Of a stretch of DNA of 64,000 bases, positions 6,628 through 52,889 are shown one piece after another. The number at the start of each line of letters is the position of its first letter. The first letter of the stretch is position 1. Source of the stretch: Morganella psychrotolerans (GTDB lineage: Bacteria; Pseudomonadota; Gammaproteobacteria; Enterobacterales; Enterobacteriaceae); NCBI RefSeq assembly GCF_001676055.1, contig NZ_LZEX01000001.1, positions 372,001 to 436,000 of the forward strand, read 5' to 3'. The position numbers and the translations under genes were made by a program. Below the pieces are notes generated by a model that did no database searches, was not told where the DNA came from, and saw nothing but the letters and a program-made list of their open reading frames with translations.

Positions 6628-8040
6628 ATGAAAAAGACGAAAATTGTTTGTACTATCGGACCTAAAACCGAATCAGAAGAGAAACTGGAAGCACTGTTAG
6701 ATGCCGGCATGAACGTGATGCGACTGAACTTCTCCCACGGCGATTATGAAGAACACGGCCAGCGCATCAAAAACCTGCGTGCTGTCTGTGAACGTACCGG
6801 TAAGAAAGCAGCCATTTTACTTGATACCAAAGGTCCTGAAATCCGGACCATCAAACTGGAAGGCGGTAATGATTTCGCCCTGGTTGCGGGTCAGACCTTT
6901 ACCTTTACCACTGATAAATCTGTCATCGGTAACAGCGAACGTGTTGCTGTCACCTATCCGGGCTTCGCCAAAGATCTGAAACCGGGCAATATTGTACTGG
7001 TCGATGATGGTCTTATCGGCATGCGTGTTAAAGAAACCACCGCAACAGAAGTCATTTGTGATGTGCTCAACAGCGGTGACCTCGGTGAAAACAAAGGTGT
7101 AAACCTGCCGAATGTGTCAATTGGTCTGCCTGCACTGGCTGAGAAAGACAAACAGGATCTTATTTTCGGCTGTCAGCAGAATGTTGACTTCGTTGCCGCC
7201 TCTTTCATCCGTAAACGTTCAGACGTTGATGAAATCCGCGCTCATCTGCAGGCCAACGGTGGCGCGCACATCCAGATTATTTCTAAAATCGAAAATCAGG
7301 AAGGGATGAACAACTTCGATGAAATCCTCGAAGCATCCGACGGGATCATGGTTGCCCGTGGTGACCTCGGTGTTGAAATTCCGGTTGAAGAAGTCATTTT
7401 TGCACAAAAACTGATGATCGAAAAATGTAATACCGCACGTAAAGTCGTTATTACTGCCACACAAATGCTTGATTCCATGATCAAAAACCCGCGCCCTACC
7501 CGTGCAGAAGCCGGTGACGTTGCGAACGCCATCCTCGACGGTACAGATGCCGTGATGCTGTCCGGTGAAAGTGCAAAAGGGAAATACCCGGTTGAAGCCG
7601 TAACGATTATGGCGACCATCTGTGAGCGTACTGATCGCGTGATGCACAGCCGTCTGGGTGAGTTACGCGCGGGTCATAAACTGCGTGTAACAGAAGCAGT
7701 CTGCCGTGGCGCAGTTGAAATGTCAGAAAACCTGGATGCACCACTGATTGTTGTTGCAACCGTCGGCGGAAAATCAGCAAAATCTGTCCGCAAATACTTC
7801 CCGAAAGCCCCTATTCTGGCGCTGACCACCAATCCGACCACTGCCCGTCAGCTTCTGCTGGTAAAAGGTGTGACCACAAAACTGGTCAGTGAAATATCAT
7901 CAACGGATGATTTCTACCGCATCGGACGTGAAACCGCATTAGAAAGTGGTCTGGCTGTAAACGGCGAAATTGTGGTAATGGTTTCCGGTGCATTAGTTCC
8001 GAGTGGCACCACTAATACCTCGTCTGTCCAGTTACTGTAG
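6628..8040 (+). CDS. pykF: Pyruvate kinase I (fructose-1,6-bisphosphate activated)
   Basis: Cytosolic glycolytic enzyme converting phosphoenolpyruvate and ADP to pyruvate and ATP, as a tetramer. Starting at ATG 6628 gives [12 protein letters not shown] and exactly 470 residues, the E. coli length; an upstream in-frame codon at 6589 would add 13 residues with no family support. Substrate-loop Arg32 (MRLNFSHG), catalytic Lys220 ([10 protein letters not shown]) and metal-binding Glu222 are present, as is the ATQMLDSMI signature. Followed by a strong terminator at 8068. Synteny pykF-lpp-ldtE is that of E. coli. Confidence 0.97.
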
Positions 8041-49462: not shown

Positions 49463-49564
49463 GGCTCACCCCCTGACGGAGGAATTTAGTTAATAGGGTG
49501 CCGCTCACAGTATCTCTGCAATGATTACGTTTGTTTGTTCAGGATTCTGTGGCGGCATATATGG

Positions 49565-49586
49565 AAAAAGGCCGCACATGGCGACC
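49565..49586 (-). terminator. tR'-like terminator before holin
   Basis: Minus strand GGTCGC - CATGT - GCGGCC then TTTTT, about 100 bp before the holin start. Confidence 0.6.
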
Positions 49587-49759
49587 TCTGGTGATACGTA
49601 TTATCCTTAATTCACACAATAAATATCTGATTGATAAGTCGATAAAAGACACATTCGCATATTTAATCGTTTTTCAAACTTATCACGGATAAATACGCGT
49701 TTTCAGGTTATAATCGAGAGGTAACAAAAACCTGAATTTATATGTCGTTTATTCTTTAT

Positions 49760-49787
49760 GCCGGTTATTCCCAACCGGCTTTTTTTT
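49760..49787 (+). terminator. Plus-strand terminator in the late region
   Basis: GCCGGTT - ATTCCC - AACCGGC followed by T8; opposite to late transcription. Confidence 0.8.
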
Positions 49788-50131
49788 GTGTCTGAAGTGA
49801 GTGGCTGATTTAGTTCAGCCGGACTGCTCTGCGCTAACAAAGCGATTGCTACTGGTATTCAGTTGTTCGGAATAACCGACCATCTGAACTATCCGGAAAT
49901 TCCGGAGAATTGAACCTGTAAGCCATCGTTACAGGTTACAGAGAATGAAAAAGACCACGCACGGCGACCTTTGGACTAAGTAGTACCGAGATTTGCAATA
50001 ATAGATTGAATCGATGCCATCAATAGGCAAAAACATGTTACCTGAGAAAAATATTCGCGTAACATATCAGCCTTGCCCATAAGACACACAGCAACCTCAT
50101 GGGTGATTAAAATAATACTTATCATCTCTTT

Positions 50132-50158
50132 GCCAGCGCTAATTACGCTGGCTTTTTT
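50132..50158 (+). terminator. Plus-strand terminator in the late region
   Basis: GCCAGCG - CTAATTA - CGCTGGC followed by T6. Confidence 0.8.
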
Positions 50159-50266
50159 GTCAATGCCTGATATTTAAGGCAACTAAAACCCCAAAAAACT
50201 CATCAAGCATAAATCCCTCGTTATCGGAATTCCTACATCGGAACAATATTAATATGTTACATACAA

Positions 50267-50296
50267 AATAGCCCCACCGAAGTGAGGCTATTATTC
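50267..50296 (-). terminator. Terminator after the small membrane frame
   Basis: Minus strand AATAGCCTCAC - TTCG - GTGGGGCTATT then TTTTG-like tail; stable TTCG loop. Confidence 0.65.
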
Positions 50297-50318
50297 TGAA
50301 ACCAATACTACAAGAAAA

Positions 50319-50516
50319 TCACTTAAACCAAGTCACCATTGCAAATGCCGCTGAAAGTAGCAGCGCAACAATAAAAAGGTTTTTAGTAAACATAAGAGTA
50401 TGACGAAAAATAGCCGTTCTGTTTATAGGTATTTCCTTAGGAATATATTCCCCTTGGATACCACATTTATTTATTATATAAAAACTCGCGGTTGCAAGAT
50501 TTACTGTTAATAGCAA
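50319..50516 (-). CDS. Possible small membrane protein
   Basis: 65 residues starting at TTG with two hydrophobic stretches (LLTVNLATASFYII and LFIVALLLSAAFAMVTW). Start codon and ribosome site are poor, but a stable terminator follows at once. No homologue recognised. Confidence 0.4.
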   Translation of the reverse strand: MLLTVNLATASFYIINKCGIQGEYIPKEIPINRTAIFRHTLMFTKNLFIVALLLSAAFAMVTWFK

Positions 50517-50584
50517 TGAGGTAAGATGGTCCAGGCTTTATAGTATTCTGCCGAAAAATTAGCTTAACTAATTTACCAGATAAC

Positions 50585-50609
50585 AAAAAACCCCGGCATT
50601 GCGAGGTTT
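50585..50609 (-). terminator. Terminator after the cold-shock gene pair
   Basis: Minus strand AACCTCG - CAATGC - CGGGGTT (one G-T pair) then T6. Confidence 0.7.
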
Positions 50610-50631
50610 AAAATAATTGGCTGCTTAATAT

Positions 50632-50772
50632 CTAATTTGCTTCAACTTTCATCGCAGTTTTGCAAAAAATACACTTCGCTCCACGCGGGTTACTCAATGA
50701 GATATCAAATTGCGATGTTCGGTATTGTGAGCCGCTGCAACAAGGACACTTAAAACAGAAGTTAATCATCAT
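50632..50772 (-). CDS. Small cysteine-rich protein downstream of the cold-shock gene
   Basis: 46 residues (MMINFCFKCPCCSGSQYRTS at the start) with CFKCPCC and CIFC motifs forming a likely zinc-binding site. It begins 8 bp after the csp stop and ends just before a terminator, so is probably cotranscribed with csp. Small proteins of this type accompany csp genes in lambdoid prophages. Function unknown. Confidence 0.6.
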   Translation of the reverse strand: MMINFCFKCPCCSGSQYRTSQFDISLSNPRGAKCIFCKTAMKVEAN

Positions 50773-50779
50773 AGTGTAT

Positions 50780-50992
50780 TTAGAGCGCCACCACATTACC
50801 AGCGGCAGGACCCTTCATCCCATCTTCAATGGTAAATGATACTTCCTGACCTTCGATTAAAGACTTGAAGTTATCGCTCTGAATTGCAGAGAAATGAACA
50901 AACACATCTTTGCTGCCATCTTTAGGGGTGATAAAACCAAAACCTTTATCATCGTTAAACCATTTTACTGAACCAGTCATTGTATTAGACAT
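50780..50992 (-). CDS. Cold-shock protein (CspA family)
   Basis: 70 residues from ATG 50992 ([20 protein letters not shown]) with AAGGAA upstream. RNP1 (KGFGFI) and RNP2 (VFVHF) RNA-binding motifs are intact. OB-fold RNA chaperone. Lambdoid prophages such as Qin and Rac carry csp genes near Q, so this belongs to the prophage. The leader is long (up to about 190 bp), as for cold-regulated csp genes. Confidence 0.92.
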
Positions 50993-51022
50993 AGAATTTC
51001 CTTTAATTTTTTTGATTGCCAT

Positions 51023-51466
51023 AAGGCATATGAGGTTTGTTTTTATTTTTACTTATGGGAATTAATTAGAAGAAATTCGCAATGAAGGGGTATCAGTGAT
51101 AGCACTAAACGGTGAACAACTTTAAACTGACTAGCATAAATAGGCCTGTACTTCCAAACCAGTGACACCATTAAGCCACAGAATGATTTAGATAGCAATC
51201 TTTATTATTTAATATATTTTATCTGTTGTGTGTAATCACACATGTGGACCTATCCGTCTTAGTAGTAATTATTGCCAATATTCTGGCGATAAAAAACCCC
51301 GCAAATGCGAGGTTTAGAATTTTTGTAGTGCGGATATGTATAGAAATCCCACTATTGATAGATAATAAGGCACTTTCGGACAAAATGCAAGTGTGTACAA
51401 CATTACCTCATTTATCTGACAGGAATGGTATATTACATATGTTTATTATTCGATTTTGGGACATGT
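51023..51466. promoter_or_regulatory. Region between the divergent csp and cytochrome b561-like genes
   Basis: AT-rich 440-bp gap. Contains the dyad TGTGTG-TAAT-CACACA (51227-51242) and a minus-strand terminator AACCTCGC/GCGGGGTT-T6 (51291-51315) that would stop leftward transcription from Q before csp. No promoter could be fixed with confidence. Confidence 0.4.
51291..51315 (-). terminator. Minus-strand terminator upstream of csp
   Basis: Minus strand AACCTCGC - ATTT - GCGGGGTT then T6; nearly the same hairpin as at 50585. Confidence 0.7.
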
Positions 51467-52048
51467 ATGAATCTGATAAGAAAAATATGGCATTTTTTCG
51501 GCCTGTATCAATCACGTAAAGTACGACTGTTACATTGTGCAGTCCTGATTTTTGTTCTGGCGCAAATCATTATCAGTAACTGGATGAAAGGCACAAAATC
51601 CTCCGCTATACCTCCGGTGGATTGGACTTATTTTTTCACATGGGCTCATGTCACTATTGGTTTTTGCTTATTTTTCATTACATTAATCTTAATTGTTGTA
51701 TGCTTCCATGAAAGGGGAATGCGGTATTTTTATCCCTATCTTTGGGGGGATGTTGTCCCATTGAAAAATGATATAAAACAACTGATGAAGCTAAAGCTAC
51801 CAGACAGCACTCCGAAAGGGCTTGCAGCCGTAGTTCAGGGATTGGGGCTTGGTGCGTTATCGATAGTCATTATATCCGGAATGGTTTGGTTTTTTTTGTG
51901 GTTACAACATTCACCATCAGCATTAGAGGCCAGAAGCATCCATAAATCATTAACAGTGCTAATAGAAATTTATATCTATGGACATGGTGGATTTGGGCTT
52001 ATCCATTTTGTTCTGTGGTATAAAAGATCAAAAAACAGCCATCAGTAA
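51467..52048 (+). CDS. Cytochrome b561-like membrane protein (moron)
   Basis: 193 residues from ATG 51467 (MNLIRKIWHFFGLYQSRKVR); an upstream in-frame codon at 51425 would add 14. Four hydrophobic segments with histidines at the right places for two b haems: RLLHCAVL, TWAHVTIG, RSIHKSL and GHGGFGLIHFVLW. It is read opposite to the surrounding late genes, between csp and Q, so it can be expressed from the lysogen. Cytochrome b561-type proteins pass electrons between quinol and acceptors; a redox role for the lysogen is inferred. Confidence 0.78.
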   Translation: MNLIRKIWHFFGLYQSRKVRLLHCAVLIFVLAQIIISNWMKGTKSSAIPPVDWTYFFTWAHVTIGFCLFFITLILIVVCFHERGMRYFYPYLWGDVVPLKNDIKQLMKLKLPDSTPKGLAAVVQGLGLGALSIVIISGMVWFFLWLQHSPSALEARSIHKSLTVLIEIYIYGHGGFGLIHFVLWYKRSKNSHQ

Positions 52049-52109
52049 TTTGTCAACCAAACGGGCAGACTGTCAACAACACTGCCCGTAATACACAGTC
52101 AGTCCAGTA

Positions 52110-52889
52110 TCACGAAGTTATCCGTCCAAACAACGATTCGGCCTGACTCTCCTCAACATAGCACTTAGCAGCCAAGCCATCATAGAACGGCTTCCAGTTT
52201 CTGCGCCAAGTTCTCTCATTTAAATCAGGAACCAAATATTTTATCGCCTGATAAGCAACTGACGACGGCACCCGCTTATATCCTCGCCCTGAGCATTTCG
52301 GGCAGTCTCTGAATACCGGTGCGCCTTGTAATTCGCTCCGTTCTTCATCAAACACCTTGCCCCGTCCTTTGCAGCGGCACCGGTGGGTTAGTTCACCCTT
52401 CCCGTTGCAGGTCACACACAGTTCGTCCACCAGCTCATTACGGACTATTGGCGCAACAATCACAGCACCTTCCATATTAGTGATGCCAGGATGCTTCACC
52501 ACATCTTTCCGGCGATAAATCAGCCCTTTCCCGCCGCAGTCCTGACACAGGCAGACCGAACCTGCTGAGCGGGCGTAATCCTCAAATGCCATTGTGGCCA
52601 GAATAGTCATACACTGAGCAATCCGGTTTCCGGCGGCTTTAGCCACCAGCTTCGGGACTGTTTTCATTGCGTACTGCGTCAGGGCTTTAACCGTGGTAAT
52701 TTTATCCTCAATGCTGACGTCATTTTTACCAAAGAACGCATGCATACCGAACGCCGCCTTTTGTGATGCCATACCCATAGCCGCTGCTGAGTCCATACCC
52801 TTCAGCCTGTCAGGTGCCGTGGAGTTTGAGCTGTCACTGAATGTCGGTGACTTCGGATGAAATTGTTTTAATGCGCTTTCAAGTTTCAT
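52110..52889 (-). CDS. Late antitermination protein Q
   Basis: 259 residues of the phage 82/21-type Q family: MKLESALKQFHPKSPTFSDS start, then DnaJ-like zinc clusters CLCQDCGGKG, CVTCNGKGE and CPKCSGRGYKR, and the C-terminal WRRNWKPFYDGLAAKCYVEE. Binds near the late promoter and modifies RNA polymerase so that it reads through tR' into the lysis and morphogenesis genes. The late promoter is expected downstream, but the b561-like and csp genes intervene, so the distance is larger than in lambda. Confidence 0.9.
   Translation of the reverse strand: MKLESALKQFHPKSPTFSDSSNSTAPDRLKGMDSAAAMGMASQKAAFGMHAFFGKNDVSIEDKITTVKALTQYAMKTVPKLVAKAAGNRIAQCMTILATMAFEDYARSAGSVCLCQDCGGKGLIYRRKDVVKHPGITNMEGAVIVAPIVRNELVDELCVTCNGKGELTHRCRCKGRGKVFDEERSELQGAPVFRDCPKCSGRGYKRVPSSVAYQAIKYLVPDLNERTWRRNWKPFYDGLAAKCYVEESQAESLFGRITS

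Follow-up and report, generated by a model that had tools for sequence, protein, structure and literature searches.

A b561-type membrane cytochrome gene between Q and the putative late promoter of a probable Morganella lambdoid prophage

The known redox cargo of temperate phages consists mainly of soluble enzymes, and SodC is one of them. In Shiga-toxin phages, the cargo beside the antitermination gene Q is found downstream of the late promoter pR' and is transcribed together with the late genes. Among the systems closest to the protein reported here is E. coli CybB, a superoxide oxidase (PDB 5oc0), for which we take H13, H45, H137 and H151 to be the haem ligands. For superoxide oxidase, PMC11869295 placed H87, H151 and H158 at the quinone, put H13 in the active-site model and gave R30, R35, R38, R108 and K134 as the cationic antenna. 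Superoxide dismutases borne by prophages were documented as cargo in PMC11332146, and the sodC genes of Salmonella prophages (Gifsy-2 type) were, like the gene described below, redox-related cargo of lambdoid prophages, although their protein was unrelated to the cytochrome. Both b561 cytochromes and morons are known kinds; it was their pairing and the position of the gene that were unusual in the present case.

The window, i.e., the whole stretch of 64,000 nucleotides that was analysed, belonged to a 4.37-Mb genome of Morganella psychrotolerans in 46 contigs. A sequence-only reading of this DNA had proposed a cytochrome b561-like gene, and the ORF was confirmed at the position and on the strand given in Table 1. 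Its product of 193 amino acids matched the Pfam family PF01292 'Prokaryotic cytochrome b561' (3.7e-11, 43.5 bits, cut-off 30.1), so the family assignment stood. An in-frame ATG at 51425 was rejected as the start in favour of the one at 51467, because all three differences between the window and locus L008 in 51425-51466 would be amino-acid changes and because 51425 fell at a -10-like element. A chance ORF was ruled out, and we judged the gene to be real and selectively maintained, since six viral contigs from IMG/VR and the M. morganii genome FAM24679 (90%) encoded it at 90-100% identity and since dN/dS was 0.14-0.32 in every comparison of non-identical intact copies. A copy of a host gene was also rejected, as the only DNA match in the genome was the gene itself. 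The genome contained four PF01292 loci, one of which (L011) was CybB-like; the host proteins L011 and L009 were about 20% identical to the prophage cytochrome in an alignment with the host proteins.

The surrounding element was lambdoid in its layout, with genes for the terminase subunits, portal, major head protein, tape measure and tail tip J, and also for CI- and Cro-like repressors, DNA primase, DNA helicase, holin, endolysin and Rz. This layout agreed with the earlier view that the gene was carried by a prophage. The neighbourhood of the cold-shock gene csp matched Morganella phage IME1369_01, and the host element was probably a Morganella lambdoid prophage.

Table 1. Features at the cytochrome locus, in window coordinates
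Feature	Position	Strand	Evidence or remark
b561-type membrane cytochrome gene	51467-52048	+	PF01292 43.5 bits; invariant histidines 29/29; AlphaFold2 model; dN/dS 0.14-0.32
Antitermination protein Q	52110-52889	-	PF03589 148.6 bits; phrog_127
Cold-shock protein gene csp	50780-51022	-	PF00313; beyond pR'/tR', context, not part of the cassette
Putative late promoter pR' of the Q module (TTGCAT-17-TATTAT)	51362-51390	-	Same block 20-23 bp after Q in insert-free relatives
Putative terminator tR' downstream of pR'	51291-51315	-	Folding energy -12.6 kcal/mol (z -4.2); also kept next to pR' in relatives
Hairpin in the gap where Q and the cytochrome gene converge	52061-52089	.	z -2.1 (+), -1.0 (-); without a long T run
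Putative extended -10 element (TGnTATATT)	51426-51434	+	Spotted by eye; conserved in each of the 7 aligned loci

In insert-free relatives with the same Q type, Q was followed by TTGCAT-17-TATTAT or a variant of it and then by a G+C-rich hairpin with a T run, and we read this block as the late promoter pR' and the terminator tR'. The block was kept in all seven cytochrome loci, where it was located on the far side of the cytochrome gene (51390-51291 in the window). Therefore, the gene sat between Q and pR', convergent with the former and divergent from the latter. Like the cargo of the Shiga-toxin phages it was an extra gene beside Q in a lambdoid phage, but unlike that cargo it was upstream of pR'. 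Since pR'/tR' lay between the cytochrome gene and csp, late transcripts should start beyond the gene and not cross it, and a late transcript across the gene was rejected on these sequence grounds. We also rejected a pR' directly after Q, in the 61-bp gap between Q and the cytochrome gene: this gap held a hairpin, which was kept in seven loci, and the sole pR' motif in the window was that at 51390.

These observations changed part of the sequence-only reading. Its placement of the gene between Q and csp was correct, as was the orientation opposite to the late genes, but the gene appeared not to be inside the late unit and so not to be read against the late operon, because pR'/tR' was located beyond it. 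The further proposal that the gene stretched the distance over which Q must act was not supported in that form. With pR' beyond the gene, the path of the antiterminated RNA polymerase to the lysis genes should not be lengthened, and what changed instead was how far gene Q stood from pR': 719 bp in the window compared with 20-23 bp in the insert-free relatives. The sequence-only reading also suggested that the gene may give the lysogen a redox, acid or peroxide phenotype.

The gap between Q and pR' was compared among 16 loci that had a Q of at least 69% identity and a readable downstream region (the window was entered as L083). Eight of them were insert-free, three contained the cytochrome gene and five (L089, L091, L094, L096, and L097) had other inserts of 429-1836 bp before pR'; the count left out L090, whose contig ended at Q, L100-L107, whose Q was 40-48% identical, and the Q remnants L108 and L109. 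As in a moron, an extra gene was found at one site that was present in some related phages and absent from others. The insert of L097 encoded an AAA_15 ATPase that strongly matched models of defence ATPases, that of L096 a DUF726 protein, and that of L091 an HTH gene and a 173-aa ORF; L089 had an ORF without a Pfam match, and L094 had several small ORFs, two of which were scanned, both without a Pfam match. The pR' matrix was trained on nine of the scored loci, and the pR' scores of L095, L096, L098, and L099 were 8.0-10.4 bits versus 45-53 bits for most others, with shuffle maxima of 3.9, 6.6, 12.1, and 6.3, respectively, so that L098 fell below its own control. These four were included on account of the ATAGTGG stretch and the tR'-like hairpin that followed. 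On this comparison, the gap between Q and pR' looks like a cargo site: the pR'/tR' motif would mark a precise cargo position upstream of pR', used by 8 of the 16 related prophages, where genes could be kept out of late transcription.

In L005-L008 the Q of the window's type was reduced to a remnant (about 6650-7012) beside the cytochrome gene, and a different Q of 145 aa was located beyond csp in L006, L007, and L008; the 145-aa Q was not found in L005. Thus, the Q tail, the cytochrome gene and pR' seem to have been transferred as a unit to phages that carry another Q, leaving a trace of module exchange between phages. In phages with the other Q, late transcripts from the promoter of that Q may cross the cytochrome gene.

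A putative transcription start of the cytochrome gene was placed near 51441 (+), downstream of the -10-like element listed in Table 1. The promoter scan gave a weaker match at 51416-51443, and promoter-like sites were not in excess (6 found, 10.4 expected). Over the 72 bp before the start codon, the window had 3-5 differences from the six other copies. There were five such differences from L008 (7%) compared with a dS of 0.25, i.e., the upstream region was less diverged than the synonymous sites.

The earlier claim of a four-helix membrane protein with well-placed histidines was borne out by both the structure prediction and the conservation in homologues. AlphaFold2 (22 sequences) produced a confident bundle of four long helices at residues 17-39, 53-83, 119-146, and 152-191 (mean pLDDT 89.3, pTM 0.82). 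Five histidines, H23, H61, H159, H173, and H180, were invariant in 29 of 29 rows of the relatives' alignment and were also kept in all 18 rows of an alignment with the host CybB-like protein and another PF01292 protein. The first four of them were present in helices 1, 2, and 4 and would be suited to ligate two b haems. The 29-row alignment (A1) included four phage copies but only some of the matching genomes from the family (25) and order (38) searches, and was made without L005 and L006, whose protein was the same as that of L008, and without the frameshifted L007; alignment A5 was A1 without the plasmid rows L016-L019 and without L074, L081, and L082. The net charge of the N end was +1 to +5 in 29/29 rows, loop 2-3 was positive in 26/29 and the C end in 25/29, and the two outer loops ranged from -4 to +2 and from -3 to +1. 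This charge pattern would fit an N-in/C-in topology with both ends in the cytoplasm.

Comparisons with known structures were less specific. The entries 6g94, 5oc0, 4gd3, and 1kqf_C were obtained at Z 10.0-10.8, with unrelated designed bundles among them at up to 10.6, so the match of the model to known b cytochromes was compatible but not decisive, being not above that to unrelated helical bundles. Foldseek gave nothing at E 0.001, the viral structure library gave no structural match at E 0.001, and the PDB sequence searches gave no match or chance-level matches only, the second being a hydrogenase cytochrome b at E 3.8. No PHROG or NCBIfam model matched the protein. With the PF01292 family, which includes the cytochrome b subunits of hydrogenase and formate dehydrogenase, it had in common a score above the cut-off, four (predicted) helices, and the order and spacing of the histidines. 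It differed in that neither partner enzyme subunits nor a gene for a periplasmic partner was found beside the prophage gene, and in that it belonged to a subfamily of its own with a YFYPYLWGD...LPxSxPxGLAAxVQGLGLGAL stretch. Taken as a whole, the protein was probably a haem-binding membrane electron carrier.

The rarity of such genes in phages, which had also been claimed, was supported. A tblastn search with the cytochrome protein found no match in 50,697 phage records; when two b561 relatives served as additional queries, one gave a single partial match (a gene annotated yodB, close to the end of a 10-kb record) and the other none. Among the phages searched, b561 genes therefore seem to be very rare. 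Extending the viral search with alignment A6 returned the same six contigs. The viral-contig and M. morganii searches were seeded by peptide patterns and may miss more distant phage copies, and the absence of a family from the VIA list does not exclude that family. Since L002 agreed with the window at every one of 12,579 bases, and could thus come from the same strain or a sister strain, the differing loci were counted as seven (the window and L003-L008), among which L006 and L008 were close to each other. The gene was intact in 6 of these 7 loci. The L007 copy was frameshifted in a T run, which could be decay, sequencing error or slippage.

Outside phages, relatives of the gene were more distant. 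In the genus, 3 of 6 genomes had a match. Besides the window's own genome, these were one at 90% and another whose relative was 44% identical and had presumably flagellar genes nearby. At E 0.001 or better, 25 of 295 genomes of the family matched, 18 of them below 50% identity, as did 38 of 394 genomes of the order, all except the window's own at 43% or less. E. coli genomes searched by DNA gave no match. Among plasmids, 496 records matched, one at 62% (Providencia hangzhouensis) and the other 495 below 60%. The orphan b561-like genes of enterobacterial plasmids and chromosomes (L019, L016, and L070) were of the same subfamily, with L016 and L070 62-64% identical; unlike the prophage gene, they were located outside phage late regions in the stretches read. 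In the tree of 29 proteins, the four phage copies formed a clade of their own (100/99). A larger clade of six rows (100/99), whose internal order was unsure, joined them with L016 from the Providencia plasmid and with the chromosomal L070. The simplest reading of this tree would be a single capture, perhaps from Morganellaceae DNA. In the open-access literature, mostly judged by titles and abstract openings, we found neither a phage-borne b561 nor cargo between Q and pR' described. PMC6558430 describes prophages in genomes of uropathogenic Morganella, but its text does not contain the terms cytochrome, cold shock or stress protein.

The neighbours of the relatives varied. In the plasmid cluster L019 (3076-6359), genes annotated as a CDF transporter, cytochrome b562, the b561-like cytochrome and a VIT transporter were found together; plasmid context was read in four of the 496 matching records. 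A VIT transporter presumably adjoined L032, L033, L036, and L042, and a CDF transporter, by our assignment, L039, L040, L041, and L043. A ferritin-like gene adjoined L079 and L080, and genes for Usp, a lipocalin and a molybdopterin oxidoreductase surrounded L070. In all 19 of the remote relatives L051-L069, the adjoining ORF was one that we take to be of the HemG/flavodoxin type, possibly forming a functional pair with the cytochrome. Several closer relatives (e.g., L071-L077) had no redox or iron neighbour in the stretches read. The common thread was redox and iron rather than one partner.

With a probability of about 60%, we consider the gene to be a lysogenic-conversion cassette (moron) that was inserted between Q and pR' of the Morganella lambdoid prophage and is expressed in the lysogen, its product being a quinone-linked di-haem b561 transmembrane electron carrier. 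The gene, divergent from pR', would most likely have a promoter of its own and would therefore be read in the lysogen as well. The product would be a four-helix b561-type cytochrome of the inner membrane with both ends cytoplasmic. It would hold two b haems, one between the proposed ligands H23/H173 near the cytoplasm and one between H61/H159 near the periplasm, with H180 as the proposed quinone site beside the cytoplasmic haem, and it would carry electrons through the membrane, linking the quinone pool with a periplasmic partner. The analysis shows the gene, its conservation, its predicted fold, purifying selection and its place relative to the pR' motif; haem binding, quinone coupling and lysogen expression are what we infer, and we can only guess that the lysogen gains tolerance of redox or iron stress. 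Through such a membrane di-haem cytochrome, lysogeny would be coupled directly to the quinone pool. It was a rare and well-supported phage gene whose proposed role we infer. A wider version of this reading, tentative and on balance doubtful, is that the gap between Q and pR' serves the lambdoid phages of Morganella as a permanent cargo niche, which delivers the quinone-linked di-haem cytochrome and also candidate defence genes and rewires the electron flow of the lysogen. If true, the phage would carry a side branch of the respiratory chain, and the genes of the niche would be outside the late transcript and readable in the lysogen.

The likeness to CybB raised the alternative that the protein was a phage-borne superoxide oxidase, passing electrons from periplasmic superoxide to quinone as CybB does and shielding lysogens from an oxidative burst; we considered this unlikely. 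The two proteins were similar in size and in having four helices, and H23, H61, H159, H173, and H180 aligned with H13, H45, H137, H151, and H158 of CybB. This correspondence was made through the host protein L011, which matched 5oc0 at E 9.7e-61, as the direct profile comparison gave little signal (probability 20%, E 0.0011). There are documented cases of superoxide dismutases in prophages (PMC11332146). Prophage SodC in Salmonella would be an analogous shield, although it acts by another reaction. However, of the antenna given in PMC11869295, only K134 had a clear counterpart in the 29-row alignment, R156 (positive in 19/29 rows), and R30, R35, R38, and R108 had none; K41 and K44 were located in the first outer loop of the window's protein, but the outer loops showed the net charges given above. 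Moreover, the proton donor H87 was replaced by Q124 (in ungapped register, by inspection), with Q in 23 and E in 6 of the 29 rows, and the host already had the CybB-like gene L011. Since the superoxide-collecting charge cluster of CybB was mostly unmatched, superoxide oxidase activity was possible but not supported by conservation.

A role in superinfection exclusion or defence, in which the b561 scaffold or an effect on the membrane would block other phages, seemed quite improbable. The ATPase in the same slot of L097 resembled defence ATPases, other loci held unknown genes there, and a position outside the late transcript would suit expression in the lysogen. On the other hand, PADLOC gave no match for the cytochrome protein, and the strictly conserved histidines, together with the relatives beside iron and stress genes on chromosomes and plasmids, pointed to redox work. 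It was very improbable that the gene was a neutral passenger, gained by recombination and decaying. The frameshifted copy in 1 of the 7 loci and the patchy occurrence in the genus (the phage-type gene in 2/6 genomes, the 44% relative in 1/6) could be taken in its favour, but six copies were intact with a protein divergence of up to 10%, dN/dS was well below 1, as under purifying selection, and the upstream region was less diverged than synonymous sites. The moron reading was kept as the best explanation.

Several other features of the region were also observed. The gene csp was on the opposite side of pR' from the cytochrome gene only in the window and L002, and was absent from the available stretch of L003 and L004. 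The Rfam model of the cspA thermoregulator (RF01766) matched at full length over csp (50730-51163, minus strand; 205.8 bits, gathering 78), so this phage cold-shock gene keeps a temperature-sensing leader. A universal stress protein gene was located just beyond tR' in L004 (5333-5779), L007 (5334-5780) and L088 (5943-6392), and in L004 and L007 it pointed the same way as the cytochrome gene; in Morganella phage IME1369_01, a universal stress protein was annotated elsewhere, together with a Blc lipoprotein and a lauroyl acyltransferase. Finally, we regarded 49500-52100 as a cargo region: its GC content was about 33-43%, compared with about 50% for most neighbouring phage genes, and it contained 8 terminator-like hairpins versus 1.7 in shuffles.
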